A DNA stretch of 64,000 nucleotides from Alphaproteobacteria bacterium (lineage in GTDB: Bacteria > Pseudomonadota > Alphaproteobacteria > Sphingomonadales > Sphingomonadaceae). Location of the stretch: NCBI GenBank assembly GCA_018823905.1, contig JAHJHL010000033.1:31938-95937 (forward strand). The letters are read 5' to 3'. The notes below the pieces were generated by a model, which was not told the DNA's origin, ran no database searches, and saw only the letters and a list, made by a program, of their open reading frames with translations. This document shows positions 19,414-35,118 of this stretch, in pieces. The first letter of the stretch is position 1; each line of letters begins with the position of its first letter. The translations under genes and the position numbers were made by a program.

Positions 19414-19451
19414 TCGGGAAAATGGGGCGTAGAATATGGCGGACAGGGTGG
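19414..19451 (+). repeat. Left attachment-site direct repeat of the island
   Basis: tcgggaaaatgggg-cgtagaata-tggcggacagggtgg; matches 35080-35118 with only a few differences. Confidence 0.85.
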
Positions 19452-19891
19452 TTTTAAAAAACTAACCCTATGTATTTGATATGTTTTTTCAAATACTAGT
19501 CTGCTAAATTCGGTCCCACACGGCGTTCCCCGTATGCCTGAATACATGATTCAGTCCGTATAACCTCTATGCCATTATAGCCGATTCTTGTCGAACCTTT
19601 TCTAAGCTACGCCAGGCCCCCGCTCGATCAGTCCGACAGCCTGATAAACTTGGATGCGGTCATTCGGGGGAGGGGGCCATTATTTCCAACCGCTTTTTCA
19701 AAGCAAATCGCAGGCAGCGGCCGGAGCGCGCCCATCTCTGCCGTCCGCTGCGATCTCGCGACGCCCGAAAGCCGTCATTCGGCTGACACGAAGACAGCAA
19801 TCGCACCTTTTTGAGCTAAGCTAGGCAAAGTTCCTTCTCAAGGCTGGTAGCGGACTACGGCCTCCTCCAGGCGACGGGCGTTACGAAGCCG

Positions 19892-20815
19892 CTAGGCACC
19901 CGATTTCCAACCTGAGGCACTAACACTATTGGTTTGGTGGAAGTGCTTGACACGCATGGCAAACGACCGGAAATCCGAATTCTCAACCGTAAGTCGATTG
20001 AATGTTTCCCAATCAACCTGTTCGTTTAAACGGGCTGGGATAAGGACTTGGCTGTCGGAGGGATCATCCAAGTCGAGCCGGACCACCCCAATTCCGTGAA
20101 GTCCGTGAAGCATCCGCAGTTCTTCCATGATCTTGCCATCGACCTGAGCGGCCACAAGATAGCCGAAATTTGCCCACGACGAGTTAGATACAGTTTGAAA
20201 AAAAGATTCCCGAACATTTGATCTGTTAAGAACGACTTTTACCTCAATAGAATACAAATATGCCTTCTCTGCCCCCGTTAAGTTCACGAGCGACAGGACT
20301 TCCGCATCCAGCCCTTCGATTAGGCTTTCCATTGCGCATAGATCTGGGAATAGCCACTTATTGCCGTTCAACCCCTTCTTATTAGATGCAGTTTTTTCGT
20401 CCACTCTGACCGCGAACGCTCCGAACTCAGAATGCAAAAAATCCATCACAGGCTGATAGATTGAGTGCTCTGAAGGAAGCGGCGAGACGGGGTCGGGTTG
20501 CTCAAACGAAAGGGGTATCGTCTCTGCCTCTACAACGGCCTGCTCATCCGATTTATCGCTCCAATAATAAAGCCTCGGCCTATCCGCCGTAGTTCTGAGT
20601 TGGGGATGCTTTTTTTCCCACGCTGGCCGATTAGCACCAATCTCTGCGACTAGTTGATTGCGAAGCATGGTTTCCGTGGCGAACCCCGATCTCTGCGCCT
20701 TTTCAGCGCAGACGTCAGGATATGTGATCATCAGCCATTCAGCGAGGTCTCTCGCTTTAAACTGCTCACCGTGGCTAGCCGAGAGTTTCTTAATAACTGC
20801 TTCGCGAAGTTTCAT
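19892..20815 (-). CDS. COG2958/HrgA-like protein (restriction-associated, HARE-HTH-like N-terminus)
   Basis: MKLREAVIKKLSASHGEQFKARDLAEWLMITYPDVCAEK...; central IYQPVMDFLHSEFGAFAVRVDEKTASNKKGLNGNKWLFPDLCAME...YSIEVKVVLN (nuclease-like E-x-K). Confidence 0.65.
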   Translation of the reverse strand: MKLREAVIKKLSASHGEQFKARDLAEWLMITYPDVCAEKAQRSGFATETMLRNQLVAEIGANRPAWEKKHPQLRTTADRPRLYYWSDKSDEQAVVEAETIPLSFEQPDPVSPLPSEHSIYQPVMDFLHSEFGAFAVRVDEKTASNKKGLNGNKWLFPDLCAMESLIEGLDAEVLSLVNLTGAEKAYLYSIEVKVVLNRSNVRESFFQTVSNSSWANFGYLVAAQVDGKIMEELRMLHGLHGIGVVRLDLDDPSDSQVLIPARLNEQVDWETFNRLTVENSDFRSFAMRVKHFHQTNSVSASGWKSGA

Positions 20816-21048
20816 AAATCCCCCCTTTGAGAGAAGTGCTAGACGGTAGCGCCGCAGATGCAACCATAGGTGAGACAGGCTTCCCCAGAGGTTTCAGTCT
20901 GGTGCGCGATTAGTCTATTGCCGGCGCATCCAAATGCGCATCTTATTAGCATCGAGTCGAAAAGGGGGCACCGTATGAACGCGCAAACGATATCCGATCT
21001 GCGAACGCCAAGGCGCTCGCGGCGCTGCCTTATCGAAGGAGCCGGAGC

Positions 21049-22116
21049 GTGACCCTGACCTTGCAGGGACCAGGAGGCGGTGAGACACTACATTCAGCGC
21101 TGGTCGCTGCCGCCACGGGTGCGACAAGTGGTTTTGCCGCATTCGCCTTCGCGACCTCATCAGGCATAGACACGGCTCTTGCGGAACCTGCGGTTCGCCA
21201 ACTGTTAGGAACTGGGCATTTCCATCTCATCGTGGGACTGGACGCAATCACGGACACTGCCGCCGTTTCCGCTATCAAGACAGCGAAAGCGGCAATTCCA
21301 AATGCGACCGTGTCAATGTTTTACAATCCAAAGGGTGGCGTCCTTTACCATCCCAAAACGATGTTTTTTAGAAACCCAGCTGGCGGTCGCTGCCTTACGG
21401 GCTCGGGCAATTTGACCCTTGGCGGACTCCGCAATAACTGGGAAGCATTCTGGAAGGCCGACGTTTCCGACGCTAGTGCGGCAGAACTCGAGGCCCAATG
21501 GACCCAGTGGATCGTTGACCATGCGGACAACCTTCTCCCGCCAGACGATCCACGGGTTACTGCTCAGGCAGCCCTCAATGCCGTGACGAAGGCCAAGATC
21601 CAAAAGGCTGTGAAGGAGACTGATGCTGAGGGGCTTGCCGCCCTGGAAGAGGAGTTAGCTGAAGCCGCTTACCTCAATCCGTTCCTGATTGCTGAAGTTC
21701 CGAAAAACCGGCCAGGTCAGGCAGATTTCGGCATCGACACTTATCAAGGATTCTTTGGCGTCACGATTGGTAAGCCTCGCGAGGTGACATTTTATCAAGT
21801 TCGGCCGGATGGATCGCTTGCGCCGCCGGAACATCGAAAAGCCGTAGCCGTGAAAAGCAGTAACTACCGCTTTGAGGTAGAAGCGCTAGGCGGCTTACAA
21901 CACCCGGCTGAAGGCCACTTTATTCTTATCTTCGAGCGCATGGGGAAGTCTGAGTATCGCTATCTGCTGCTGAAGCCGGGCGAGGTCGGTCATGCAAGCG
22001 TGCAGAAATTCTTGAATGACAATTATTTTGTCTCCGGGAACTCCAAGCGAAGAATTGTTGTGACACAAAATGACATCCAGGCGGCTTGGGCAGATAATCC
22101 GTTACTCCTCCATTAG
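21049..22116 (+). CDS. Phospholipase-D-superfamily nuclease, NgoFVII/BfiI-type restriction endonuclease candidate (GTG start)
   Basis: GGVLYHPKTMFFRNPAGGRCLTGSGNLTLGGLRNNWE: H-x-K plus GSGNLTxGG PLD signature; 355 aa; lies between a COG2958-like gene and two DNA methyltransferases. Confidence 0.75.
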   Translation: MTLTLQGPGGGETLHSALVAAATGATSGFAAFAFATSSGIDTALAEPAVRQLLGTGHFHLIVGLDAITDTAAVSAIKTAKAAIPNATVSMFYNPKGGVLYHPKTMFFRNPAGGRCLTGSGNLTLGGLRNNWEAFWKADVSDASAAELEAQWTQWIVDHADNLLPPDDPRVTAQAALNAVTKAKIQKAVKETDAEGLAALEEELAEAAYLNPFLIAEVPKNRPGQADFGIDTYQGFFGVTIGKPREVTFYQVRPDGSLAPPEHRKAVAVKSSNYRFEVEALGGLQHPAEGHFILIFERMGKSEYRYLLLKPGEVGHASVQKFLNDNYFVSGNSKRRIVVTQNDIQAAWADNPLLLH

Positions 22117-23483
22117 CGGCAAAGGAGTAAGACCTCCGTCGTCCCTTTCGCAGCTTTATTCATCGACGATGAGTTGAGTTTTATGTGGTCTAAGTCGGTC
22201 AGCTGCTCGACTTGTACCTCTCTGAAATAGCGTTCGGCGAGCCCGATAACGGCATCGAGCGCCATCACCCTTGGACGAGCTTCCATACTGGGATCGAAGC
22301 CGGAATACGAAAGGACCAGCGGAACTCCCAAATCCGCGACCCCGGCGAAAAGTGACGAGAATGCTCTGGGAGCCTCGGACTTGATGCAGAACGGCGATTG
22401 GTGCCGTCCGGCTCGGTAGCCGCCACGGCTCTTCACGCCACCCCCACCTAAATTGCTTTTTGTTATGCTCGGCTCATCGCCGAGCGCGATCGTTTCAAGG
22501 CTATGATAGAACCTGCTATAGTGATCCCGCGTATAAGGAGGATCAGCGTAGACCACTGACGGTCTGATTGCAGGATTGGCCAGCGCCTCACGGAAATCAG
22601 CGCGCATCGCTACATGATCGCGTCTCGTGGTTGCTAGGCCCTCATAATGCCAAAGGTAACGCATGAAAATTGACCGTGCGGAAAGCGCCCGCTCCGAAAC
22701 GATCTTTTTGACGACATGCCGTTTCGGCGCGCCAAATTTGTCTCTAGGTCGAATGGGCTGGGCAAATTGCTTGCCAATCGAGTTTACCAACTGGCTAGCG
22801 GTGCTTAGCGTTGCTGCGAGGGCAACGGAGCTGCGGGTTTTATGAGCCATTGCTGCTAATGCGTCGAGCTCTGCCGCTTGTGCATAGCTAAAATATTGTC
22901 CCCCGAAGTGGCGAATGCACACTGTTTCTTCACCACGGAGTCCGAGTGCTTCGATCCTGCGCAGGGTCTCACGTACGGCACCGCTCAGCCCGGACGATAC
23001 CGGCAGGGGCGCGTTTTCCAAACTAGCGAGATTTCCTAGGTCAAGAAGTTCGCAGAGCGGTTCAATGTCGCCACGCAATGCGCGTGTCGCGAACTCATCC
23101 TCCACGCTGACAAGCGGCGCAACCGCTTGGCGAAGAGCCTCACTATGACCTGCTTGGACAACGCTCGCATCGAAATTTTTCGCCATATAGGCTGGAGCGC
23201 CGTTCAAGACCGCGTCGGCAAGTACCCGCGCATATTCTTGGATGTCGACCGCCAGCACGCGACGGCTACGGGAAAGGTATCGCGAAACGGTGGCAGAGCC
23301 TGAAAATAGGTCGCATACCGGTCCGCCCGATGGGTCGACGCGATCGATGGCTTGTCCTATGGATGGCAGAACTCGAAGTTTGCTTCCAAGGTAGTGGATG
23401 GGACGAAAGACGAAGCCAGGCGTCTCCACGTCGAGCGTTTCAGTCTGGTCGTTTTGAGCTTTTACCGCACTGCTTTTTGGCAA
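22113..23483 (-). CDS. DNA N6-adenine methyltransferase, D12/COG3392-like class
   Basis: FRPIHYLGSKLRVLPSIGQAI...VCDLFSGSATVSRYLS (AdoMet motif) then SVVYADPPYTRDHYSRFYHSLE (DPPY). Confidence 0.88.
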   Translation of the reverse strand: MPKSSAVKAQNDQTETLDVETPGFVFRPIHYLGSKLRVLPSIGQAIDRVDPSGGPVCDLFSGSATVSRYLSRSRRVLAVDIQEYARVLADAVLNGAPAYMAKNFDASVVQAGHSEALRQAVAPLVSVEDEFATRALRGDIEPLCELLDLGNLASLENAPLPVSSGLSGAVRETLRRIEALGLRGEETVCIRHFGGQYFSYAQAAELDALAAMAHKTRSSVALAATLSTASQLVNSIGKQFAQPIRPRDKFGAPKRHVVKKIVSERALSARSIFMRYLWHYEGLATTRRDHVAMRADFREALANPAIRPSVVYADPPYTRDHYSRFYHSLETIALGDEPSITKSNLGGGGVKSRGGYRAGRHQSPFCIKSEAPRAFSSLFAGVADLGVPLVLSYSGFDPSMEARPRVMALDAVIGLAERYFREVQVEQLTDLDHIKLNSSSMNKAAKGTTEVLLLCR

Positions 23484-23545
23484 GGCTTTTGTTACCCTTA
23501 TTTATCGGCAAATGGCCGGCGCGAGGACAAGGCACGGTGGAGAAT

Positions 23546-24745
23546 ATGAGAAGTAGGCCGATAACCTCTGACGCTCCGTTTTCGCTAGCGCGCTCGCTGG
23601 ATGGGAGCAACGACTTTACCCGTGAGACAGCACTGTCAGTCGGACAGGCCAACACCGATAGCGCGATCATTCACGGAGAGAACCTCGCTGTCCTCGACTC
23701 GCTTGGCGATGCCATTAAGGGACGGGTAAAATGTGTCTACATAGATCCGCCTTATAATAATGCTGAGGTCTACCGGCATTATGACGACCGGCTGGGCCGA
23801 CGCGTGTGGCTGGACCGCATGACGCATCGCATGCGAGCGTTAAGAGAAACCTTGTCATCTGACGGATCGCTTTGGGTCTCAATCGACGACAGTGAGTTGC
23901 ATAACCTGAGACAAATTGGCGACGACGTGTTCCAGCCGGAAAACTTCATCGCCACCGTCGTCTGGAATCACCGTAAAACGAGGGAAAACCGCCGGCCGTT
24001 TTCTACTAACCACGAGTACATCCTATGTTTTGCAAAGAATGCCGAGGCGTTCAAGCGCTCGCGAAACCTTCTAGCTGCAACCCCGGAGATACTCAGTCGC
24101 TATAAAAACCCCGATAAAGATCCGAGAGGCGCATGGCAGTCGATAACTGCCAATGTGCAAGACGGCCACGCCACGAAGTCCCAGTTTTATACCCTCGTCT
24201 CGCCTAGCGGTCGACGACACGAACCGCCGAAGGGTCGCTGCTGGGTATACAGCCAAGCCAAGATGGAATCCGAAATACGGGCAGGACGCGTTTACTTTGG
24301 ACGTGACGGCAATGCCGTGCCGCGCCTGAAGAAATATCTGAGTGAGGCAAAAATAGGAATAGCCCCGTCTACATTGTGGATGGCCGACGAGGTCGGCACC
24401 ACCGACTCTGCGAAAAAGCACTTATTGTCAGTTTTGACAAAGGAGGACGTTTTTGACACGCCCAAGCCGGAGGAGCTTATCCAGCGCATTTTGCACGTTG
24501 CGAGCAATCCGGGCGATTTGATCTTGGATGCATATTTGGGGTCTGGCACGACTGCGTCAGTCGCAATGAAGATGGGTCGTAACTTCCTTGGGATCGAGCA
24601 GGGGCCACACATCGCCACCCACTGCGTGAAAAGGCTGCGCGCCGTTCATGACGGCGAGGGAGGGGGCATAAGTCCGTTAGTTGGATGGGAAGGTGGGAGC
24701 GGCTGCGCCTTCTATTCTCACCGGTCAAAGCTCACGCGGGTTTGA
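23546..24745 (+). CDS. Site-specific DNA adenine methyltransferase (beta-class/type III Mod-like order)
   Basis: IIHGENLAVLDSLGDAIKGRVKCVYIDPPYNNAEVYRHYDD...SLWVSIDDSELHNL...PGDLILDAYLGSGTTASVAMKMGRNFLGIEQ: DPPY precedes the FxGxG-like motif. Confidence 0.9.
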   Translation: MRSRPITSDAPFSLARSLDGSNDFTRETALSVGQANTDSAIIHGENLAVLDSLGDAIKGRVKCVYIDPPYNNAEVYRHYDDRLGRRVWLDRMTHRMRALRETLSSDGSLWVSIDDSELHNLRQIGDDVFQPENFIATVVWNHRKTRENRRPFSTNHEYILCFAKNAEAFKRSRNLLAATPEILSRYKNPDKDPRGAWQSITANVQDGHATKSQFYTLVSPSGRRHEPPKGRCWVYSQAKMESEIRAGRVYFGRDGNAVPRLKKYLSEAKIGIAPSTLWMADEVGTTDSAKKHLLSVLTKEDVFDTPKPEELIQRILHVASNPGDLILDAYLGSGTTASVAMKMGRNFLGIEQGPHIATHCVKRLRAVHDGEGGGISPLVGWEGGSGCAFYSHRSKLTRV

Positions 24746-25170
24746 GACGGGGATTCGCTCATCCAACTGCCTCGGCGCCTTGGCGGGGTGGCCCGTCTGC
24801 AAATTTTCGGGCGATGAGGCGAGGGGCTCGAACAGGGTGCTTGTGACGATCCATATCATTATCGCCTCTTTGAAAAATCCTTAAACTGGTGTAAGGCATA
24901 ATCACCGCGACGCAGTGATGCGGGCACTTCACCTCATTTCCGTAAGGATTCGAGGGCGGCAACGCGAGGTTTTCCGGGCAACCGGCACCCCGTACGTCTT
25001 GGAATCGCTCGAAGAGCTGTCGCCGCCTTCGGTGACGTCGGATTTTTTCCGGCAAGCGGAAGGAGGATGCGCAAGGAGCACTCCATTCTCCCTGGCACCT
25101 CGGATCGTCAACCATGTGTTGCGGTCGGGAAAGCTGCGTGCTGTCGGCCGCCTGCCAGAAGGTACTGAAT

Positions 25171-25380
25171 ATGAGTGCAAGTTCCCAAATGAAGGAAGTC
25201 CGCCGCGACCTTGAACGTCGCGGCTTTAACATCAGCAAGACTCGTGGTGGCCATTGGCGCTTCGATCATCCGAACATGGACGGGCCGGTTTTCGGACCTG
25301 ACACGCCTTCGGACCGTCGCGGCATCAAGAATCTGCTCGCGCAGATTCGCCGCAAGCTGCGCGTGGCAAACGACGTCTGA
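25171..25380 (+). CDS. HicA-like (dsRBD-fold mRNA interferase-type) small protein
   Basis: MSASSQMKEVRRDLERRGFNISKTRGGHWRFDHPNMDGPVFGPDTPSDRRGIKNLLAQIRRKLRV; matches the HicA pattern (K..GSH..F.HP...P..K...G....I..). Confidence 0.65.
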   Translation: MSASSQMKEVRRDLERRGFNISKTRGGHWRFDHPNMDGPVFGPDTPSDRRGIKNLLAQIRRKLRVANDV

Positions 25381-25455
25381 TGCTTCCCGCCGGCGGACGT
25401 GATCGTCCGCCGGCACACTCAACACTTGCCATCAAGATGGCCTGGAGAACCCAAT

Positions 25456-27474
25456 ATGATCAAGCTTACTTCGGACGATAGTGTCCTTCCGCGTCCCGTC
25501 GACGTGCTTCCCGAACTTGCGAATGCAAAATCACGTCAGACATTGGCGCAAAAGCTCTCGGATGCGTTCGAACTCTCGGACGCCTCAGCAATGGCGATCG
25601 CGAACGCGGTCGTAGATCCTAGCGCGGTCCGCAAATCGATCGGTGAACCGAGCGATCCGGAGGTCGAACGAATTCCGGTGCCGGGCGGCACGTTGCTCGG
25701 CATCCGGACGACGGTATGGACGCGCCGCACAATGCCCGACCCCCGGAACCCCCGCACGCTTCCGTCCCGCCGCCATCCGTTCGCTATCGAGCCGGGCACT
25801 GGCGCGGAGGATTCCCGGTTCCGTCCGGTTCCCGAGCCCCAGCCGCTCGATCCCGAATATCCCCAGCTTGCAGAACTGGCTGTCGACATCGAAAATCGCG
25901 AGCATCTTACTTGGGCGTCGCAACAGGCCAAGGCATACGTTTTGGCAGAGAACGATTGGCGCGTTTCCATCGCCTCACAGGGCGTAATGGAAGCGGTGTG
26001 GCTGGTTGCGACGACCTATCGGCACAAGGACGGAACCGAACCGGCGACGACTTTGACCACTGCCGAAGGGTCATCGCGAGATACCGCTGCCCACTCGATT
26101 TTGGGCGTTCAGTCGGCGGATGTTCCCTATGATGAGGCAGACGCGCGCATGCGGTCGCACATCCGCAAGCTTAATGAAGCCTTCATCGCTGGCGAACGGG
26201 ACCCGGAATTGCTGGCGACGCTGCGCTGCGAGCGCATTCCTGCGTTGATCCTTGTCGGCTTTGAACCGCATGATGGAGCGACGACGGGCTTTCCGACCGC
26301 CGTGAAGTCTCTCGTCGCGCTCCGTCACGTCGATCCGCCGAAACCTTGGGGCGAAGGTCCTGAAAATGAATCCTTGGCTGACGAGGTTCTTGACGAGCTT
26401 TACCGCCGTTCCTTGATTTCGGCGACGCAGCGCGATTATTATGCTGGCTCATGCACTCGGGCCGAGGCACTCACGGCGCATCTGTCCGATGACCCCGTGA
26501 TCCGTGCCGCCGAAATCATCCGGCTGTTCACCAGTGATGATGGTGAGGTTCACGACGCAATCCGGATTGCGGTAACGAGCCAGTCGACACGAAAGCGTAT
26601 GACACCCAAGTTGATGAATGAACTCTCGACGGCACTGATTTTGCGCGCAGTATCTGATGATCGCGACCGCGTTGACCAAGTGCGACGTTATCTTCGGTAC
26701 GCATTTAGCAAGGCGGTGCATCGCGAAACTTGGACCGCGACGCGCCGCCCCATCGAGACGCTCAAGTCTCTTGCACTTGAAGAGGTGCGCGAGGCAATTG
26801 GATCGGGAAATGACGAACCGGGTTCCGCTTCGCTGGAATTGGCGGTGCGAGCGGCCTTTCCCCTCGTAGTCTCTGGCAGGCTCAACGCTGACCGTGGCAC
26901 GTCCGGGAACCAGCAGCCTGACCGTCGAACACCTGGCGAAGTACTCGATGCAATGCGCCGCACGCCGCAGGGCGTGCGGCAGCTCGCTCAGGCACTTGAT
27001 GACTTCGGAGCCGGTATCAACGCAATTCGTGCCGTTGACGACGATGGAAACATCCGCGCTCGGCCCAACGGTTCCGAACTCACCATTAGCGATGTGTTCT
27101 TGCGTGGCGAGTTTCCGGCCCCTGGAAAGGCCAAGGCTGCAAAGCCGGGCGACACCCCGACTGACTACTACGAAGCAGCGGTCGAGCGTCTCGCCATCGC
27201 CTTTCAGAACGTCGAAACGGCCTTCGAAGAACTCGCAGCGGTTAGCGGCGATGACGGCCAGCCGCTCGTCGAAACCCGTGGCGTCGATGTTCGGCTTACC
27301 GACGTTTGGCGCACCTTGCTTCGCCGTATGGCAGACGACATGGTAGTGTGGTCGGCCACCTATCGGCGCGCATACGGCAAGCCGCAGACTCCGTCTTTTG
27401 CGGCCGTGGACGACGAGAACGAAGTCGATGACCCATACGCCGATGCGGCCGATCTCGACGACTCGCAGGACTAG
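25456..27474 (+). CDS. Large uncharacterised protein (672 aa), partner gene of the HicA-like ORF; possible ParB-like segment
   Basis: Single long ORF with RBS-preceded ATG at 25456; SIASQGVMEAVWLVATTY...TLTTAEGSSRDTAAHSILG loosely resembles a ParB-type EG-x-R-x-x-A segment; acidic C-terminus DDENEVDDPYADAADLDDSQD. Confidence 0.6.
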   Translation: MIKLTSDDSVLPRPVDVLPELANAKSRQTLAQKLSDAFELSDASAMAIANAVVDPSAVRKSIGEPSDPEVERIPVPGGTLLGIRTTVWTRRTMPDPRNPRTLPSRRHPFAIEPGTGAEDSRFRPVPEPQPLDPEYPQLAELAVDIENREHLTWASQQAKAYVLAENDWRVSIASQGVMEAVWLVATTYRHKDGTEPATTLTTAEGSSRDTAAHSILGVQSADVPYDEADARMRSHIRKLNEAFIAGERDPELLATLRCERIPALILVGFEPHDGATTGFPTAVKSLVALRHVDPPKPWGEGPENESLADEVLDELYRRSLISATQRDYYAGSCTRAEALTAHLSDDPVIRAAEIIRLFTSDDGEVHDAIRIAVTSQSTRKRMTPKLMNELSTALILRAVSDDRDRVDQVRRYLRYAFSKAVHRETWTATRRPIETLKSLALEEVREAIGSGNDEPGSASLELAVRAAFPLVVSGRLNADRGTSGNQQPDRRTPGEVLDAMRRTPQGVRQLAQALDDFGAGINAIRAVDDDGNIRARPNGSELTISDVFLRGEFPAPGKAKAAKPGDTPTDYYEAAVERLAIAFQNVETAFEELAAVSGDDGQPLVETRGVDVRLTDVWRTLLRRMADDMVVWSATYRRAYGKPQTPSFAAVDDENEVDDPYADAADLDDSQD

Positions 27475-27482
27475 GTAAGTTG

Positions 27483-27516
27483 CCCCGGCCAGCGATCCAC
27501 TGGCCGGGGTTTCTGT
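27483..27516 (+). terminator. Rho-independent terminator after the 672-aa ORF
   Basis: CCCCGGCCAG-CGATCCA-CTGGCCGGGG perfect 10-bp stem followed by TTTCTGT. Confidence 0.85.
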
Positions 27517-27733
27517 GATGTTTTAAAACTATCTGACTTCGGTGGCACATCTATTGCGACTGCGCTCTATTCCGCGTCGATTCACTGAGCCGCCGCTTAC
27601 TGGCCGTCCCATTTGCTGATCGACTGACCCGCCAGGTCGGAGCCTGATTCCGACGTGGCCGCAAACGGTAGTTTTGCCGAAAATCCGCCGTTGAGGGTTC
27701 TACAAGAAGGGTGTTTCGATCAGAAAAGGCGAC

Positions 27734-28027
27734 TTAATCTTCCTCGAATAATGGCATCGAACCGCGCGGCACTGTTGTGGGAGGTTGGTCGGACGTTCGC
27801 GATTGATCATAGGTGTTGGCCATCTGCCCGGTCGGTGAGCGCCGGATTGGGATCGCGGTTCGGCTCAGCCGACTACCACGTTGCCGCTCGATCAAATTGC
27901 GCAGACTTTCGGTGAGGACGAGCGTGGCGGCCCCCATCTTGACGATCTCGACCTCTCCCCTGGCGATAAGCAGGTAGAGTGAGCTGCGACTGATCCCGGT
28001 GAACCGGCAAGCATCGTGAATGCGCAT
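27734..28027 (-). CDS. Small HTH (MerR/excisionase-like) DNA-binding protein
   Basis: MRIHDACRFTGISRSSLYLLIARGEVEIVKMGAATLVLTESLRNLIERQRG, excisionase/HTH_17 pattern. Confidence 0.75.
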   Translation of the reverse strand: MRIHDACRFTGISRSSLYLLIARGEVEIVKMGAATLVLTESLRNLIERQRGSRLSRTAIPIRRSPTGQMANTYDQSRTSDQPPTTVPRGSMPLFEED

Positions 28028-28505
28028 GCTGATTGGCTCGATCGCTAGGGGCGACGAAGGCGGCGGGGAAGAGGGCAGGGCGGGCATAAACACCAACATT
28101 CGTTGAGAGTGGTGACAGGATGGCCGGGAAGAGAGGGCGGCCACCCGGTCGCATCCGATTATCTGAAATTGCGTCGCGACTTGCCACCCGACGTTTCTTA
28201 CCCAACGTGGCCGTTTCTACGCCTGTAGCCGGTTTTCCGTTCGGCCGGACGTCGCCAGACAGTAAGGGATGCATTAGAATGTTTCGAGTCGCGAGGCGGT
28301 CCGATCCTTACTGCACAGCTTGAAGCCTCGACCATAGGCGACTGATTGTCCATCCACCGGGCCCTCATTACGCTGTCCGGGAGACCGATGTTTGCAAGCG
28401 GCCGATCTACGGCTCGCGACAAATTCCGTCCGCCATATTCGCGTCCGACAAGAGTACGATTCGCAGCCTCGAAACGTCCCAGAAAACCGTCATTTTGCCC
28501 CCGAC

Positions 28506-28525
28506 GAGGCAGCGCGCGCTGCCTC
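28506..28525. repeat. 20-bp perfect palindrome flanked by ~32-bp imperfect direct repeats
   Basis: GAGGCAGCGCGCGCTGCCTC; flanking copies at 28462-28493 and 28528-28559 (27/32 identical by eye). Confidence 0.8.
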
Positions 28526-28827
28526 AGCGCAGCCTCGAAAAGTGGCAGAAAAGCGTGATGAACCCGTGCGTAAGGTGTGTGATTATAATATGTGGGTCCG
28601 GTGCGAAGCATCGCGGCCCGGAAAACGCGGACGGGTCGGCTGAGACAGCCCAGGGGCGTTTGACCGTTTTATTGGTCAGGTTGCAGGCTGCCCGCTTTCT
28701 CAAATTTGGAACGGATGGGTTCATGTTCCAGACAAACACGTTGGCGGATCGCTGCGAATAGAAGCATCTCGAGCGGCAGAGAGTAACTTGGTTAGGCGGA
28801 GCAAGCTTCGCTTGGCGCTTCCAGCTG

Positions 28828-30576
28828 CTAGGGCCTCAGCCGCCGCGCTGCGGGCCTGAAGATTTCGGTCGGGACCGCGGACTGGGCCGGTCTGTTCACC
28901 GACCCTTTCGGAACCAGCACGCCGCCTTGGCTTTCGAACGCGCCGCTGCCGGCCACGAGGCGTTCGCAATATAGAGCGCGAACCTCCTCGTCGCTCAGGT
29001 TGGCGGCCTGCGCTTCCGGCAACTTCAGCCGCTCGAGGAGGTTGTCGCGTGGCCAATCCGAATGAATGCGCATGAGCGCGCAGAAGAACTCATACGGTGT
29101 TTTCGATACGTTAGGGACAGGGCGCACCTGTCCGAAATAGGCGTCCGGATGATTGCGATAATCGGCGAACTGTGCGTCGCTCATATTTTCCTTGAGGAGG
29201 TAGGCCTTTTTGTTCGCCTCGTCGTGGACGGCTATCGTCACCGTCTGGTTTGCTTCCATGACGATGGCGTCAGTAACGGTCGCAATCATGTCACCGCCGT
29301 CTTCGCCAGCACCCTCGAAACTATAAGTTTGCCCAATCATCACTGGCGGCCTCTCGCCATGCAGCGTTACTCCCGGCAGCGAGCCGTCAAAAGTAGAAGG
29401 AATCGAAAGCAAGGAGGACAGGCCCTCGGCGACAAGGTTCGCATCCGCGTGCTTCTGCTCTCGCTTATAGGCCTCGTAGAGCGTCATATGGCCCGACCGG
29501 TTGAAGTCCGGGATACCGACACCGATGGGCAGGGCGACCATTTGAGCTGGCCCTTCAAGCTCCCGATGGAAGGTCATGTTCGTGATGAACAAATAAGCGG
29601 ACTGGCCGTCGGCCAGCTCTTCGCGCTCGTAGCGGTGAACCCGATCTGTCGCTTTCGCGAGAAATGGCGGACGATCATCCTCCGTGACGTCGCTGCGCAT
29701 TTCGCAATTAAGATCGATGAAGATCATGCGTCGATCTGCCGCAGGTTTCTTGAAGGCACCGTTAAGCTGCGGAATCAGGCTGGAGATCGCGCTGGGGTTC
29801 CTGGTGCCATCCGCATCGGTTCGACCGAGCAGCCCGGCCACGCCGCGCATCTTCGCCTCGATCCAGAACTTCTCGCCCGTGGCCTTAGACACGGCCGCGA
29901 ATTCGCAATGCTTCTCACGCTTGTCTGTCTCGTCCTCAAGTGTCAGCTCGAATCCTGCGGAGATGAGTGCGCGAGCGACGAGAATTTCATAATAGGCGCC
30001 CTGAAAGTTGCCGGGATCCTTCAGGCGGGCGAGCAATCGTTTCTGCAGTTCAACATTGTGGTCGAGCAGATAGAGACCATAGGCGAGCCCGAAATAGCAG
30101 CCCAGGACGCCTACGACGTCGGTGCTCGTTGGCACGCCCGCCTTCTTCACCCATTTACGTTGAAAGTGGCAAAGCGCCTCATACCATTGCATGATCGTGT
30201 GCCGCTGTTCGAGCGGTTTGGCGATTTCTGCATTGCCCCAAGCAGGATCGAGTTTCGTTTTGAGATAGTCCTGCAGGAAATCGGGAAACGTCTTCCAGTT
30301 CCGGGAAGAAACCAGCTTGTTGCCGATCGCGACGACCTGTTCGTCTCCGACTTTAGCGGCAATTATCGGGCGTCCGAGGCCCTGCTGCTTCTCGCGAACC
30401 CTCTCGCGCGCTTGCCACTGGGTCCGTGCTTGCTCGATGTCCTTGGGAAAAAGTCGAGGTGCTCGCCCATTCGAAGCGACAGTGCCGTGGCAATGCTTGA
30501 ATTTGCGCCCGCTGCCGCATGGGCAACGTTCGTTGCGTCCGATCTTTCGCTTCCTTCTTGACGGGCTACTGGTCAT
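28828..30576 (-). CDS. SEC-C zinc-motif protein with putative PD-(D/E)xK nuclease-like core
   Basis: N-terminal KIGRNERCPCGSGRKFKHCHG (SEC-C); ALISAGFELTLEDETDKREKHCEFAAVSKATGEKFWIEAKMRG (E...ExK arrangement). Confidence 0.7.
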   Translation of the reverse strand: MTSSPSRRKRKIGRNERCPCGSGRKFKHCHGTVASNGRAPRLFPKDIEQARTQWQARERVREKQQGLGRPIIAAKVGDEQVVAIGNKLVSSRNWKTFPDFLQDYLKTKLDPAWGNAEIAKPLEQRHTIMQWYEALCHFQRKWVKKAGVPTSTDVVGVLGCYFGLAYGLYLLDHNVELQKRLLARLKDPGNFQGAYYEILVARALISAGFELTLEDETDKREKHCEFAAVSKATGEKFWIEAKMRGVAGLLGRTDADGTRNPSAISSLIPQLNGAFKKPAADRRMIFIDLNCEMRSDVTEDDRPPFLAKATDRVHRYEREELADGQSAYLFITNMTFHRELEGPAQMVALPIGVGIPDFNRSGHMTLYEAYKREQKHADANLVAEGLSSLLSIPSTFDGSLPGVTLHGERPPVMIGQTYSFEGAGEDGGDMIATVTDAIVMEANQTVTIAVHDEANKKAYLLKENMSDAQFADYRNHPDAYFGQVRPVPNVSKTPYEFFCALMRIHSDWPRDNLLERLKLPEAQAANLSDEEVRALYCERLVAGSGAFESQGGVLVPKGSVNRPAQSAVPTEIFRPAARRLRP

Positions 30577-30769
30577 ATGTTCCCTTTTTGTCCGAAACTT
30601 CTACATCGGTCAAATTGAGCGCGGCATTTTTCGGGCGCACTCTGGTCTCACGGGCTAGGTCAGGGGTCGCGCCGATGCTCGGCCTCGCGCGCATGCGCGG
30701 CTTTGCTCCTTGGCGGGGGGAGACCTGCCGTCCCTTCCGCACGCCGCCCCAGATGCTCGGTGGTTGCGC

Positions 30770-30845
30770 TCGAATATGGACCATTACTTCGCATGAAGGA
30801 GCGATGGAGATGGCAGGAACTTCAAAAATCAGGGAGCCAATTAGG
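30770..30845 (+). repeat. Left copy of 76-bp imperfect direct repeat flanking the IS110 transposase
   Basis: tcgaatatggacc-attacttcgcatgaaggagcgatggagatggcaggaacttcaaaaatcagggagccaatta versus copy at 32362-32437. Confidence 0.8.
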
Positions 30846-30980
30846 AATGCCGCCGTATTTGGCGAGGACTTGGCGTTGCTTCCGACCAGCACGGCCGCTG
30901 CGCCCAATGAGAAACCTTGCGCTGCGGACGCCAGCGGCGCGACCCTCGCTCCGGTCAAACGGAAGCGAAGGAGTCGTGTG

Positions 30981-32069
30981 ATGGAATATTTTACCGGCCT
31001 TGATGTCTCGATCGACGAAACCGCGATCTGCGTTGTCGGCGACGACGGGAAAGTCGCGTTCGAAACTGCTGTGGAAACCGATCCGGCTGCGATCGCGGAG
31101 GCATTGCGACCCTATGCGGATCGCATGCGCCGCGTCGGCCATGAAGCCGGATCGCTATCGCCGTGGCTGCATACCGAGCTGCTGGCGGAAGGTGTTCCAG
31201 CGGTCTGCCTTGAAACGCGTCATGTGCGCGCGGCGCTGTCGGCGCAGCGCAATAAGACCGACGCCAACGATGCGCTCGGTATCGCGCATATCATGCGGAC
31301 TGGCTGGTTCCGCCAGGCGCACGTCAAGACGGACGCCTGCTATCGCATCCGCTTGCTGCTCGTTCAGCGCCGAAATCTCAAGCGCAAGTTCCTCGACCTC
31401 GAAAATGCCATCCGTCACTCGCTGAAAGTGTTCGGAATCCGGCTCGGCAAAGTCGGCCGCGGCGCCATGGAAAAGGCCGTGCGCGAGTCTGTGGCCGGCG
31501 ATGCGATGACCGCTGGACTCATGGACTGCATGCTTCGCGCGCGCGCGGCGCTGTGGGCTGAATATCTGACGCTGCACAAGCTGGTCGTGCAGATCGCCAT
31601 GCGCGACGAGCTATGTCGGCGGTTTATGGCAATCCCCGGTGTTGGTCCCGTCACCGCGCTCAGCTTCAGCAGCGCGATCGACGACCCGCAGCGCTTCCGT
31701 CGTTCGCGCAATGTCGCGGCCTACTTCGGGCTGACGTCGAAGCGATGGCAGTCGGGCACCTCGATCGATGTCCACGGTCGCATCAGCAAGGCGGGCGATC
31801 CCGACGTGCGCCGCGCGCTCTACGAGGCTGCGTCGGCGATGCTCACCCGGTTCAAGGGCCGCGACATGATCAAGACATGGGGGCTGAAGCTCGCGAAGAC
31901 CAAGTGTCACGCGAAAGCCCGCGTCGCCGTCGCACGCAAACTTGCCATCGTGATGCACGCAATGTGGCGCGACGGTACCTTTTACGTCGGCGATCCAGAC
32001 GCGACTGCGCAGGACATCGACGCATCGAACGCAGCGAAACTGCAACGGCTCAGCCTCGCGAACTCATGA
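30981..32069 (+). CDS. IS110-family transposase (possible in-frame N-terminal extension from 30804)
   Basis: MEYFTGLDVSIDETAICVV...KTDANDALGIAHIMRTGWF (DEDD) ... FMAIPGVGPVTALSFSSAIDDPQRFRRSRNVAAYFGLTSKRWQSGTS (Transposase_20). Confidence 0.93.
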   Translation: MEYFTGLDVSIDETAICVVGDDGKVAFETAVETDPAAIAEALRPYADRMRRVGHEAGSLSPWLHTELLAEGVPAVCLETRHVRAALSAQRNKTDANDALGIAHIMRTGWFRQAHVKTDACYRIRLLLVQRRNLKRKFLDLENAIRHSLKVFGIRLGKVGRGAMEKAVRESVAGDAMTAGLMDCMLRARAALWAEYLTLHKLVVQIAMRDELCRRFMAIPGVGPVTALSFSSAIDDPQRFRRSRNVAAYFGLTSKRWQSGTSIDVHGRISKAGDPDVRRALYEAASAMLTRFKGRDMIKTWGLKLAKTKCHAKARVAVARKLAIVMHAMWRDGTFYVGDPDATAQDIDASNAAKLQRLSLANS

Positions 32070-32361
32070 ACAACCACCGCCCCATCGACTGCCGGTTGAC
32101 GGCGCAACGAGCTTAGGAGGTCCGCGCAAGCGGCAGAGGAATGATACAGACCTGGAAAACGGGAAGCACGATATCTTGCCTGTGGCCGACATCCTCGGAC
32201 CACGCACGAATGCCTGTGATGCTGCCCCGTAAATCCGATAGCGACATGTGCCGCGACGGCTCGAACACCGCGAAAGTGCGGTTCCAACATCCCGTCGATG
32301 AGCCCGGAAGAGTGCACGGCGTATCAGACCCTCGTCACATCGCAGATCTTGCAAGCCTGTC

Positions 32362-32437
32362 GTCGAATAGGGGCCAATTACTTGCTATGAAGGAGAGATG
32401 GAGATGGCGAAAACTTCGAAAATCAGGGAGCCAAATA
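32362..32437 (+). repeat. Right copy of 76-bp imperfect direct repeat (truncated IS110 leader?)
   Basis: tcgaataggggccaattacttgctatgaaggagagatggagatggcgaaaacttcgaaaatcagggagccaaata; encodes MEMAKTSKIREPNKRAR* versus MEMAGTSKIREPIRN... in the left copy. Confidence 0.8.
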
Positions 32438-32582
32438 AGAGGGCAAGATAAAAGCGGTGCCAGCTTCTGGCCCGCAATGGTTGGTTTTCTGCGGCTTCGA
32501 GCGTATGGCATGTCTCGAAACTGCCATACAGGCCGCACGAAAACGGCCCGCAGCGCGTGTTTTTCGTATGGCTTAAGCGAAA

Positions 32583-33512
32583 TCAGGGGTGAGTTGCGGC
32601 TTTCGCTTCGAGTTCGGCGATCCGCTCGCAGCAAATCGCATGGACAGCGCGGCCAAGCTCCTCGATGCAGTCGCTGAGCCATTTCAGCTCTTCGTTGGTG
32701 ATGCGATAATGTTTCGAGTAGCGGGCCTTCACATAGGCCTCTTTCAGCTTCTCGAAGCGCGCCCGATCCGATTTCAGTTCACGAGGCCAGGCGTCGACGA
32801 GGCGCATGTCAATTCGCTCAGCCTGGGTGCGCAGGAAGGCGAGATTGTGGACATGAGGCGTGTAGAAAGAGCAGACCAAGAGAACGCAGTGGTAAAGGCG
32901 CTCGGTCGCTTGATGAGTGTCGAAGGCTGCGTCTTTCAAATAGCCCTTCTCGAGATCGAATTTGGAAATTTCGAAACGCTTCATCGCCGAAGGAAACCAC
33001 TCGTCGAAATATTCGCGCGCCATCGCCAACGCCTGTTCGGGCGTCTTTGGCTTGGGGGTGTGAAGCGGCTTGTCATCGTATTCGTAAAGCGCGATCCCAT
33101 CGCGGGCGACGTCCATGAAGAAGTAGCGCCCGTGCGCGAGGCCGTCGTTCACCTCCTGCAAGGTGTGAACAATGAAATTGACCGGCGTCTTGAGCGTCTT
33201 GTCGATTGCGAGCTCGCGAATGAGCCGGTCTTCGAGCTTGCCCCAGAAATCGACCTTCTCAGTTAGCCGCTTGTCGTTGACGATGATGAGAAGATCGAAG
33301 TCGGAGCGATAGCCCTTGGCGGTGTGGGGCTCATCGACCCAGCCGCCGCGCGCATAGCTGCCGTAGAGGATGATCTTGTCGATCCGGCCTTTCTTCTTCC
33401 AGCCCATTGTGCCGAGCGCGATGGCATCCTCGAATTCTTCGAAGACGATTGCCTTAACGCGGTCGAGTTCGCGCTGCTTGTTCGCCGGAAGATGATCAAG
33501 GTCGGTTTTCAT
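32583..33512 (-). CDS. Fused nucleotidyltransferase-HEPN domain protein
   Basis: IILYGSYARGGWVDEP...GYRSDFDLLIIVND (GS-x-D-x-D NTase) plus AAFDTHQATERLYHCVLLVCSFYTPHVHNLAFLRTQAE...YVKARYSKHY (HEPN). Confidence 0.85.
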   Translation of the reverse strand: MKTDLDHLPANKQRELDRVKAIVFEEFEDAIALGTMGWKKKGRIDKIILYGSYARGGWVDEPHTAKGYRSDFDLLIIVNDKRLTEKVDFWGKLEDRLIRELAIDKTLKTPVNFIVHTLQEVNDGLAHGRYFFMDVARDGIALYEYDDKPLHTPKPKTPEQALAMAREYFDEWFPSAMKRFEISKFDLEKGYLKDAAFDTHQATERLYHCVLLVCSFYTPHVHNLAFLRTQAERIDMRLVDAWPRELKSDRARFEKLKEAYVKARYSKHYRITNEELKWLSDCIEELGRAVHAICCERIAELEAKAATHP

Positions 33513-33563
33513 GCTGGCGGCACCCTGTCGAGACGGCGGCAAATTGGCAAGGTCGAAGCGCCG

Positions 33564-33812
33564 TCACCGGCGCCAGAATTGCCACCGCTTGCGGTTCTTT
33601 CTATCAACCGTTTGCGCGATGACGCGCAGGCTTCGGATCATTGCCTGTTCGATCTCAGCAATGCTGACGCCGTGCCGTTCGGCAAGCTGGCGATAGCTTA
33701 GCTCCTCGACCCGATGGCCGAGAAAGACTCGGCGGTCGAACTCGTCCAGCCGATCGACAGCGCACTCGTAGAGGCGTAGCAGGCGGCGCCGCGCGCGGGT
33801 GAAGCGATTCAC
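33564..33812 (-). CDS. Small sigma-70 region-4-like HTH protein, overlapping the integrase stop
   Basis: VNRFTRARRRLLRLYECAVDRLDEFDRRVFLGHRVEELSYRQLAERHGVSIAEIEQAMIRSLRVIAQ; GTG start overlaps the TGA of the integrase (GTGA). Confidence 0.75.
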   Translation of the reverse strand: MNRFTRARRRLLRLYECAVDRLDEFDRRVFLGHRVEELSYRQLAERHGVSIAEIEQAMIRSLRVIAQTVDRKNRKRWQFWRR

Positions 33813-34972
33813 CGCTTCTTGCCTTCGCAGAAGTTGGCCCAATCCTCCATCATCACGCGGCGCTTTTCGAGCAGATTGCCGCGCCGGTAAGCGGCCTCGG
33901 TTTTGTTCGCGACCGTGTGGGCGAGGGCGGCTTCGGCGACATCGCTCTGATGGTCGGTTTCTTCGCTCACCCAATCGCGGAAAGACGAACGGAATCCGTG
34001 CGCCGTGAATGGCTCGCCCAACTCCTTGACCAACTTCGACAAAGTCATATCGGACAAGCGCTGGTTTCTACGGATGCCGGGGAATACCAACTCGCAACCC
34101 GCGATGCGAAGTCGCGCGCAACGCTGAACGATGCGGAGCGGGCGGCGGGAAAGGGGCACCACATGCTCGCGGAACGCCTTCATGCGCTCCTTCGAGAGCG
34201 TCCACAGTCCCTTTTCTAGGTCGAACTCATCCCATGTCGCGCCGCGCACCTCGCCGGATCGCGCGGCCGTGAAAATAGCAAATTCCAGCGCCAGCCGACT
34301 GAAAGATTCCTTCTCGCGCAGCGTCTGCACGAACGCTGGCACGTCTTCATAGGGCATGGAGGCAAAATGATTGTCTCGGCGAGGTTGGCGCGGCAATCCC
34401 TTCGTGATCGCCCGCATAGGCGCTTCGGTGTCGCGGTAACCCGACGCGTATGCCCAATCGAGGACAGCGCCGACACGCTGCCGCACGCGGCGCGCCGTCT
34501 CCGGCTTCTCAAGCCAGATTTCCTCAAGCAAGTCACGGATCATCGGGCCGGTGATCTGATCGACCCGAAATTTTCCGATGTGCGGGAAGGCATAAAGCTC
34601 AAGCGTCCGGGTCCATTGCGCGTGGTGCTTGCCGTTGCGCCACGTCTTGGAATGGACCTCGTAAAACTTCGCTGCCGCTTCCTTGAATGTCGGCACGGCC
34701 TGCCGCTTGCGCCGCTCGAATTGCGGGTCGATCCCCAACTCGATCTGGCTGCGAATTTCGCGCGCCAGCTCGCGGGCTTGCGCCAAACTGACCTTCTGAC
34801 AGCTGCCTAGGCCGAAGTCGCGGCGGTTGCCGTGCTTCTGCACCCGGCACACCCAACTGCTTGTGCCTCCCGGCCGATCCAATCTGATGAGTCCGTCACC
34901 GTAGCTAACCCGGCTCGACTTGCCCTTGGACTTCACAGCCCCGTTTTGCGCATTTTTCATCGTGGTAATCAT
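33809..34972 (-). CDS. Tyrosine recombinase/phage-type integrase of the island
   Basis: DUF4102-like N-terminus (GLGSCQKVSLAQARELAREIRSQIELGIDP); catalytic AARSGEVRGATWDEFD ... FTAHGFRSSFRDWVSEETDH ... ALAHTVANKTEAAYRRGNLLEKRRVMMEDWANF. Confidence 0.93.
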   Translation of the reverse strand: MITTMKNAQNGAVKSKGKSSRVSYGDGLIRLDRPGGTSSWVCRVQKHGNRRDFGLGSCQKVSLAQARELAREIRSQIELGIDPQFERRKRQAVPTFKEAAAKFYEVHSKTWRNGKHHAQWTRTLELYAFPHIGKFRVDQITGPMIRDLLEEIWLEKPETARRVRQRVGAVLDWAYASGYRDTEAPMRAITKGLPRQPRRDNHFASMPYEDVPAFVQTLREKESFSRLALEFAIFTAARSGEVRGATWDEFDLEKGLWTLSKERMKAFREHVVPLSRRPLRIVQRCARLRIAGCELVFPGIRRNQRLSDMTLSKLVKELGEPFTAHGFRSSFRDWVSEETDHQSDVAEAALAHTVANKTEAAYRRGNLLEKRRVMMEDWANFCEGKKR

Positions 34973-35079
34973 AATTTTCAGTCCCACATTGGCAAAAATG
35001 TCGGACTGGATCCTGTGGGACACACAGGGACCCGAATCGCTTCTCAAACCCGCAGCAAAGCTGAGGTGCCGGAAACGGT

Positions 35080-35118
35080 TCGGGAAAATGGGGGATTAGA
35101 ATTTGGCGGACAGGGTGG
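35080..35118 (+). repeat. Right attachment-site direct repeat (overlaps tRNA-Ser 3' end)
   Basis: tcgggaaaatgggg-gattagaatt-tggcggacagggtgg; pair of 19414-19451. Confidence 0.85.

Follow-up and report, generated by a model that had tools for sequence, protein, structure and literature searches.

What unit do the two ORFs at this locus belong to? The window (the whole stretch of DNA that we analysed, 64,000 nt in length, from a genome that its relatives suggest to be sphingomonad-like) carries a HicA-like ORF and, 75 bp after it, an ORF for a 672-aa protein, and the initial annotation took this pair as a candidate two-gene system in which HicA is paired with a large protein instead of HicB. 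Both ORFs and their spacing are as annotated (Table 1). However, this pair does not form the unit's core. The element common to every locus with intact upstream sequence is a conserved non-coding leader RNA of about 265 nt at 24904-25170, which the annotation did not include. A better description of the locus is a new cassette led by an RNA, with an orphan protein and, through a single addition, HicA. Our best explanation, to which we give a probability of roughly 0.58, is that the leader is a cis-acting translational switch that controls the orphan, possibly defence-related protein.

Table 1. Features of the cassette and its island, in window coordinates.
Feature	Position	Strand	Evidence
Integrative island with the cassette	19414-35118	.	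15.7 kb; direct repeats, integrase and GC shift
Promoter region	24870-24903	+	sigma-70-like hexamers; start inferred at RNA 5' end
Leader core domain	24904-25072	+	alignment A4 (20 loci), covariation counts; covariance model R1, 130 bits
Core helices	24907-24909/25070-25072; 24911-24916/25016-25022; 24923-24930/25002-25009; 24953-24958/24995-25000; 24966-24970/24987-24991; 25023-25029/25060-25066; 25032-25033/25056-25057; 25037-25042/25048-25053	+	alignment A4
Expression platform of the leader	25075-25163	+	partner-shuffle tests
Platform hairpin	25075-25091	+	
Closing helix, which abuts the HicA-like ORF's Shine-Dalgarno (GAAGG)	25092-25097/25153-25158	+	476 vs 359 +/- 15
Helix H1	25099-25106/25123-25129	+	340 vs 301 +/- 11, partner shuffles
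Alternative helix H2	25121-25128/25144-25151	+	380 vs 310 +/- 15, partner shuffles
HicA-like protein, 69 aa, optional component	25171-25380	+	PADLOC/Pfam matches and motif conservation
Strong inter-ORF hairpin lacking a T tract	25389-25414	+	fold z = -4.45 for 25381-25458
Small hairpin just 5' of the large ORF's Shine-Dalgarno	25428-25441	+	sequence inspection and fold
672-aa orphan protein, cassette-defining	25456-27474	+	ORF call and relatives
GC-rich closing hairpin, likely terminator	27482-27516	+	sequence; stem 27482-27509; T tract interrupted

The large protein fits no family, as had been stated: it has no significant profile match in Pfam, NCBIfam, PADLOC or PHROGs, and no match among PDB sequences. 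Matches to Pfam EAD2 in 5 of 22 members were not significant and we rejected them. The pI is acidic (5-6) and gives no hint of RNA binding; the acidic tail pointed out in the annotation recurs in about half of the relatives. A likeness to ParB had also been proposed. By eye the order of motifs (NPR - SIxxQGVMEAVWLV - TAEGSSRxTA - RIPALILV) does resemble the ParB boxes, but profile comparisons with ParB, DndB and GmrSD_N gave nothing, by a method that also missed the link between DndB and ParB. AlphaFold models of the full protein (pLDDT 69, pTM 0.43) and of residues 62-322 (pLDDT 47) were both too poor, and Foldseek with the low-confidence full-length model returned no match. Our literature search found no description of this protein or of the leader RNA.

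More than 20 loci carry a member of this protein family, spread over Pseudomonadota, Acidobacteriota, Planctomycetota and Myxococcota. Public genome scans turned up 21 of them, which share 50-72% identity if the fragment L023 is set aside; further relatives are a Mesorhizobium plasmid copy, a Shinella remnant and copies on two viral contigs, L026 and L092, the latter with both RNA and hicA. Locus L004 is from the laboratory strain Sphingomonas echinoides ATCC 14820. The gene is rare, with 2 of 401 genomes of the family and 2 of 399 of the phylum carrying it; in an Acidobacteriota sample it was in 1 of 247 genomes, that one being the centre genome itself. High identity across phyla combined with sparse occurrence points to horizontal spread of the cassette. 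Some copies are decayed. A Sphingobium remnant (L023:909-1612) is broken or rearranged, 90% identical with one piece inverted, and a Shinella plasmid keeps a C-terminal fragment (L025:11968-12237).

We spotted the leader RNA through similar residues in meaningless upstream reading frames of several loci. It starts with ACCGCGAC at the 5' end, and its 3' limit is the start codon of the next ORF, which is hicA if present and otherwise the large ORF. RNAalifold on the 20 aligned loci predicted 51 pairs, 31 of which have compensatory (double-sided) changes. Leader cells were paired in 91.1% of cases, against 80.5% when the 3' letters were shuffled and 39-47% when partners were slid by 1-3 columns, and the covariation score was 0.435, against 0.237 +/- 0.010 shuffled and 0.08-0.154 slid. 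These counts use the alignment from which the structure itself was predicted, so support from outside it matters. The covariance model of the core domain (R1) gave out-of-sample matches 5' of relatives at L092 (128 bits) and at the most divergent member, L022 from Sorangium in the Myxococcota (51 bits, E=1e-10). L019, which keeps the ORF, matches weakly (26 bits) because the 5' half of the RNA is missing there, and the L026 sequence begins too near the ORF to show a leader. Taken singly, the window's leader does not outdo its shuffled versions in folding (z=-1.15), whereas that of L008, a relative with no HicA, does (z=-3.35). The leader RNA is a class absent from Rfam (no plausible match in Rfam 15 at E<=1 for four leader copies) with strong covariation. 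A small upstream ORF within the leader was considered and rejected, as its start-like site GGAGGATG is not conserved (L014, L015, L020, L021).

RNA and protein are strictly linked. The RNA was found exactly once per genome, at the cassette locus, in all 12 carrier genomes searched, and among 201 Sphingomonadaceae genomes only the window's own has it. Wherever it was found, it stands upstream of this one protein family. RNA and protein distances are correlated (Mantel r=0.76, with 0 of 5000 permutations as high). A 20-mer of the core also hit eight viral contigs (L084-L091); the covariance model finds nothing on them, and we put these hits down to chance.

The 3' part of the leader has the look of an expression platform. 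In the closing helix, the strand CCUUGGCA pairs with a strand in which the next ORF's Shine-Dalgarno lies, and the predicted helix covers that site in most loci; in the window it has 6 pairs and abuts the site rather than covering it. Compensations in this helix include UUGGC/GCCAA, UUAGC/GCUAA, CUCAGC/GCUGAG and CUUUGGC/GCCAGAG. Inside the closed region, a middle strand (of the GCGACCGAG type) is predicted to have two possible partners, the strand before it (H1) and the strand after it (H2). For the closing helix, H1 and H2 alike, 0 of 1000 partner shuffles scored as high. As a control we set the two outer strands against each other, and they came out slightly above shuffles (23 of 1000), so kinship of the loci inflates these tests somewhat. 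Two helices that share one strand are the usual sign of a switch, although H1 and H2 may coexist without switching. We had also predicted that AAGGAGG in the core pairs with the anti-Shine-Dalgarno strand as an alternative, and this failed the test.

The leader is probably transcribed from its own first base. Over 21 loci, sigma-70-like hexamers placed for a start at that base scored 163, against 120 +/- 4.6 for shuffles (maximum 136); the window itself matches weakly (7 of 12). In most loci no leader hairpin is followed by a T run, from which we conclude that there is no terminator between RNA and ORF. At the far end, the initial annotation described a strong terminator at 27483-27516. The hairpin is indeed present, but with an interrupted T tract, and a terminator scan passed it over.

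The borders of the cassette come from comparing related loci in pairs. Homology starts at or within about 15 nt of the first base of the RNA in most pairs (window/L009, L003/L004, L010/L011, L014/L020 and L015/L021) and inside the RNA in L018/L019, and it mostly ends with the large ORF or the closing hairpin. As these stretches of homology open with the RNA and usually close with the protein, we regard leader, optional hicA and large ORF as a discrete cassette. In L005/L007 homology starts about 40 nt earlier and continues through one more ORF downstream. That ORF, directly 3' of the cassette in these two Sphingomonas-type loci (L005:10142-11542 and L007:10158-11516), encodes a protein of about 460 aa, for whose L005 copy Pfam and PADLOC gave no match. 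As the homology runs through it, it may be a further add-on.

Put together, the unit would be a mobile, one-transcript cassette made of a structured leader RNA, an optional HicA-like ORF, the orphan protein of about 670 aa and a closing hairpin. A cis-acting switch is best supported because the RNA includes the ribosome-binding site of the first ORF, no terminator separates them, and no copies of the RNA exist apart from the gene. We imagine that the core domain would act as a sensor and that the 3' part would close its helix and so hide the first ORF's Shine-Dalgarno. The likely switching point would be the two mutually exclusive helices inside the closed region. The most likely ligand would be the cassette's own product, in autogenous repression, because a single protein family follows the RNA wherever it was found, with one copy per genome. 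A change caused by phage or stress would then release translation, and in one branch the HicA-like protein would have been added under the same leader. Several observations speak against this model: the unexceptional fold of the window's own leader and its closing helix that only abuts the Shine-Dalgarno, the failed AAGGAGG pairing, the acidic protein, and the ORF of L019 that persists with half of the RNA gone.

The main alternative, possible but unlikely, is an RNA that acts in trans as in AbiF-RCd22 or ToxIN: it would be processed from the transcript and bind the 670-aa protein as antitoxin, guide or scaffold, and the protein would be an abortive-infection effector held in check by RNA. The strict linkage and co-divergence of the RNA with one protein family would be expected in this case, the defence-island setting would suit it, and AbiF provides a precedent, where an ncRNA in front of the Abi gene neutralises it by binding (PMC12373285). 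However, the leader has no tandem repeats and no terminator before the ORF. It also reaches the start codon, with the Shine-Dalgarno inside its conserved last helix in most loci, and the protein is acidic. These features argue against a trans-acting RNA.

The HicA-like ORF turned out to be an optional part of the cassette. The assignment to HicA is real but modest, resting on PADLOC HicA-like (E=6e-7), on Pfam HicA_toxin (E=3.6e-5, with a score just under the family cut-off) and on PHROGs matches (3e-9) to families of unknown function. In the GGH..HP motif, G27, H28, H33 and P34 are invariant in nine relatives, and the protein is probably RNA-binding or mRNA-cleaving. In the seven HicA-bearing genomes that we searched with the window's protein, the sole match in each was the cassette copy. 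The recurrence of the pair in other genomes was confirmed: the HicA-like ORF precedes the large gene in 9 of 22 aligned loci (window, L003, L004, L005, L006, L007, L009, L014 and L020), and the pair is also on the viral contig L092. The other 13 aligned loci (L008, L010-L013, L015-L019, L021, L022 and L024) have the large protein and no HicA, which means that the large protein has a function of its own. All 13 match the RNA leader model, L019 only weakly, so we consider HicA to be an add-on of one branch. On the protein tree the presence of HicA needs only one change, a gain or a loss (support 77/99; mean of 7.2 with shuffling), so HicA most simply joined once.

These counts bear directly on the system as first proposed, in which the HicA-like protein would be a toxin and the large protein its antitoxin in HicB's place. 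The catalytic-type His and the GGH..HP motif are conserved, and the pair is stable within its branch. The reported lack of a HicB nearby also held up, with no PF15919 match anywhere in the window's own genome (the search covered PF15919, one of two HicB families, the other being PF05534). Nevertheless, a definition by HicA in place of HicB does not fit the 13 loci with no HicA, where the common feature is the RNA, and we find this reading very improbable. Two further structures lie around the junction of the ORFs. The hairpin separating hicA from the large ORF is similarly strong at matching places in L003-L007, L009, L014 and L020, and most HicA-bearing loci have a small hairpin abutting the large ORF's Shine-Dalgarno.

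Weakest of all, and hardly to be expected, is an ordinary metabolite riboswitch in front of an accessory gene for metabolism or plasmid maintenance that has nothing to do with defence. The riboswitch-like anatomy would allow it, as would the loci on plasmids or near ParA/partition and conjugation genes, but the metabolite riboswitches known so far usually stand before several families of genes, whereas this RNA was found only in front of a single rare one, and no enzyme family is recognised in the large protein.

The window's cassette sits in a complete integrative island. The direct repeats that bound it (19414-19451 and 35080-35118) are the end of a tRNA-Ser(TGA) and are imperfect, 90% over 39 nt. 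The integrase gene lies at 33809-35047, and GC is 0.577 inside and 0.636/0.622 outside. The island contains type III-like and D12 DNA methyltransferases, a PLD-like protein, a nucleotidyltransferase-HEPN protein and an IS110-family transposase. The stretch 19892-24745 is likely a restriction-modification cluster, with the D12-class methyltransferase at 22113-23483, the type III-like N6/N4 methyltransferase ending at 24745, the PLD-like protein at 21049-22116 and a 323-aa protein with no family at 19892-20863. In a 582-aa protein (28828-30576) a SEC-C zinc motif lies at the N terminus, and the rest has no assignment. The IS110-family transposase (30519-32069) adjoins the cassette and is possibly a bridge-RNA element. 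At 32583-33542 a single 319-aa protein fuses an MNT-like nucleotidyltransferase to a HEPN domain; the two are normally separate genes that form a type VII toxin-antitoxin pair.

The initial annotation placed the pair in a defence-laden setting, and we agree. Defence or candidate-defence neighbours were present at 6 of the 16 loci examined, a count of neighbours picked by nearness that has no background rate. They are the methyltransferases in the window, an AccI-type restriction enzyme (L020), the SIR2 candidate PDC-S65 (L014), a NACHT protein (L018), Abi_2/PD-T4-5 (L021) and PDC-S64 (L008). Others adjoin integrase, transposase, VapE-like primase or conjugation genes, and several cassette loci are on plasmids or near ParA/partition and conjugation genes. 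A comparison of conserved neighbours across loci found no recurring gene beyond the RNA, HicA and the large ORF. Antisense ORFs that recur around the loci are shadows of the coding frame and not conserved genes.

The cassette might be a new RNA-protein anti-phage system, in which the leader would sense infection, by a phage molecule or by loss of its own repressor protein, and release translation of a new effector family, with the HicA-like protein as an RNA-acting accessory in one branch. We hold this to be rather doubtful. If the leader does sense infection, it would trigger immunity in the manner of a riboswitch, and if it binds the protein, the RNA-controlled effectors ToxIN and AbiF would have a further counterpart. 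In either case, an RNA that is absent from Rfam, covaries and is tied one-to-one to an annotation-free protein family, spread on islands over four phyla, makes a concrete and testable unit.

Among known systems, the cassette resembles AbiF/Abi_2 with the ncRNA RCd22 (the Rfam abiF motif RF03085, C. difficile), where a structured RNA also lies directly 5' of one orphan-like family on mobile elements in defence settings and represses the abiF gene (PMC12373285). Here, however, there is no Abi_2 domain (PF07751) and no RF03085 match, and instead of a repeated 36-nt motif there is a single fold that includes the Shine-Dalgarno. Type III toxin-antitoxin systems (ToxIN, AbiQ, CptNI, TenpIN) likewise have an RNA gene and then a protein gene on one transcript, but with tandem repeats and a terminator between RNA and gene, and our cassette has no match to a ToxN-like endoribonuclease in Pfam or PADLOC. 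The repeats, terminator and protein families that define AbiF and ToxIN are thus lacking, although the cassette could work alike. With HicAB type II toxin-antitoxin systems it shares the small HicA-like protein and its conserved motif, but here that protein is preceded by an RNA leader and followed by a 672-aa protein, has no PF15919 partner and is missing from more than half of the relatives. The likeness to ParB/Srx-type N-terminal domains (ParB, DndB, GmrSD_N) lies in the motif order, and neither profiles nor low-confidence models added to it. Finally, while the leader has no Rfam match and precedes one rare, island-borne protein family, it shares with translational riboswitches and with autogenous leaders of the ribosomal-protein type a conserved covarying core, a helix that masks the Shine-Dalgarno and alternative helices that share a strand.
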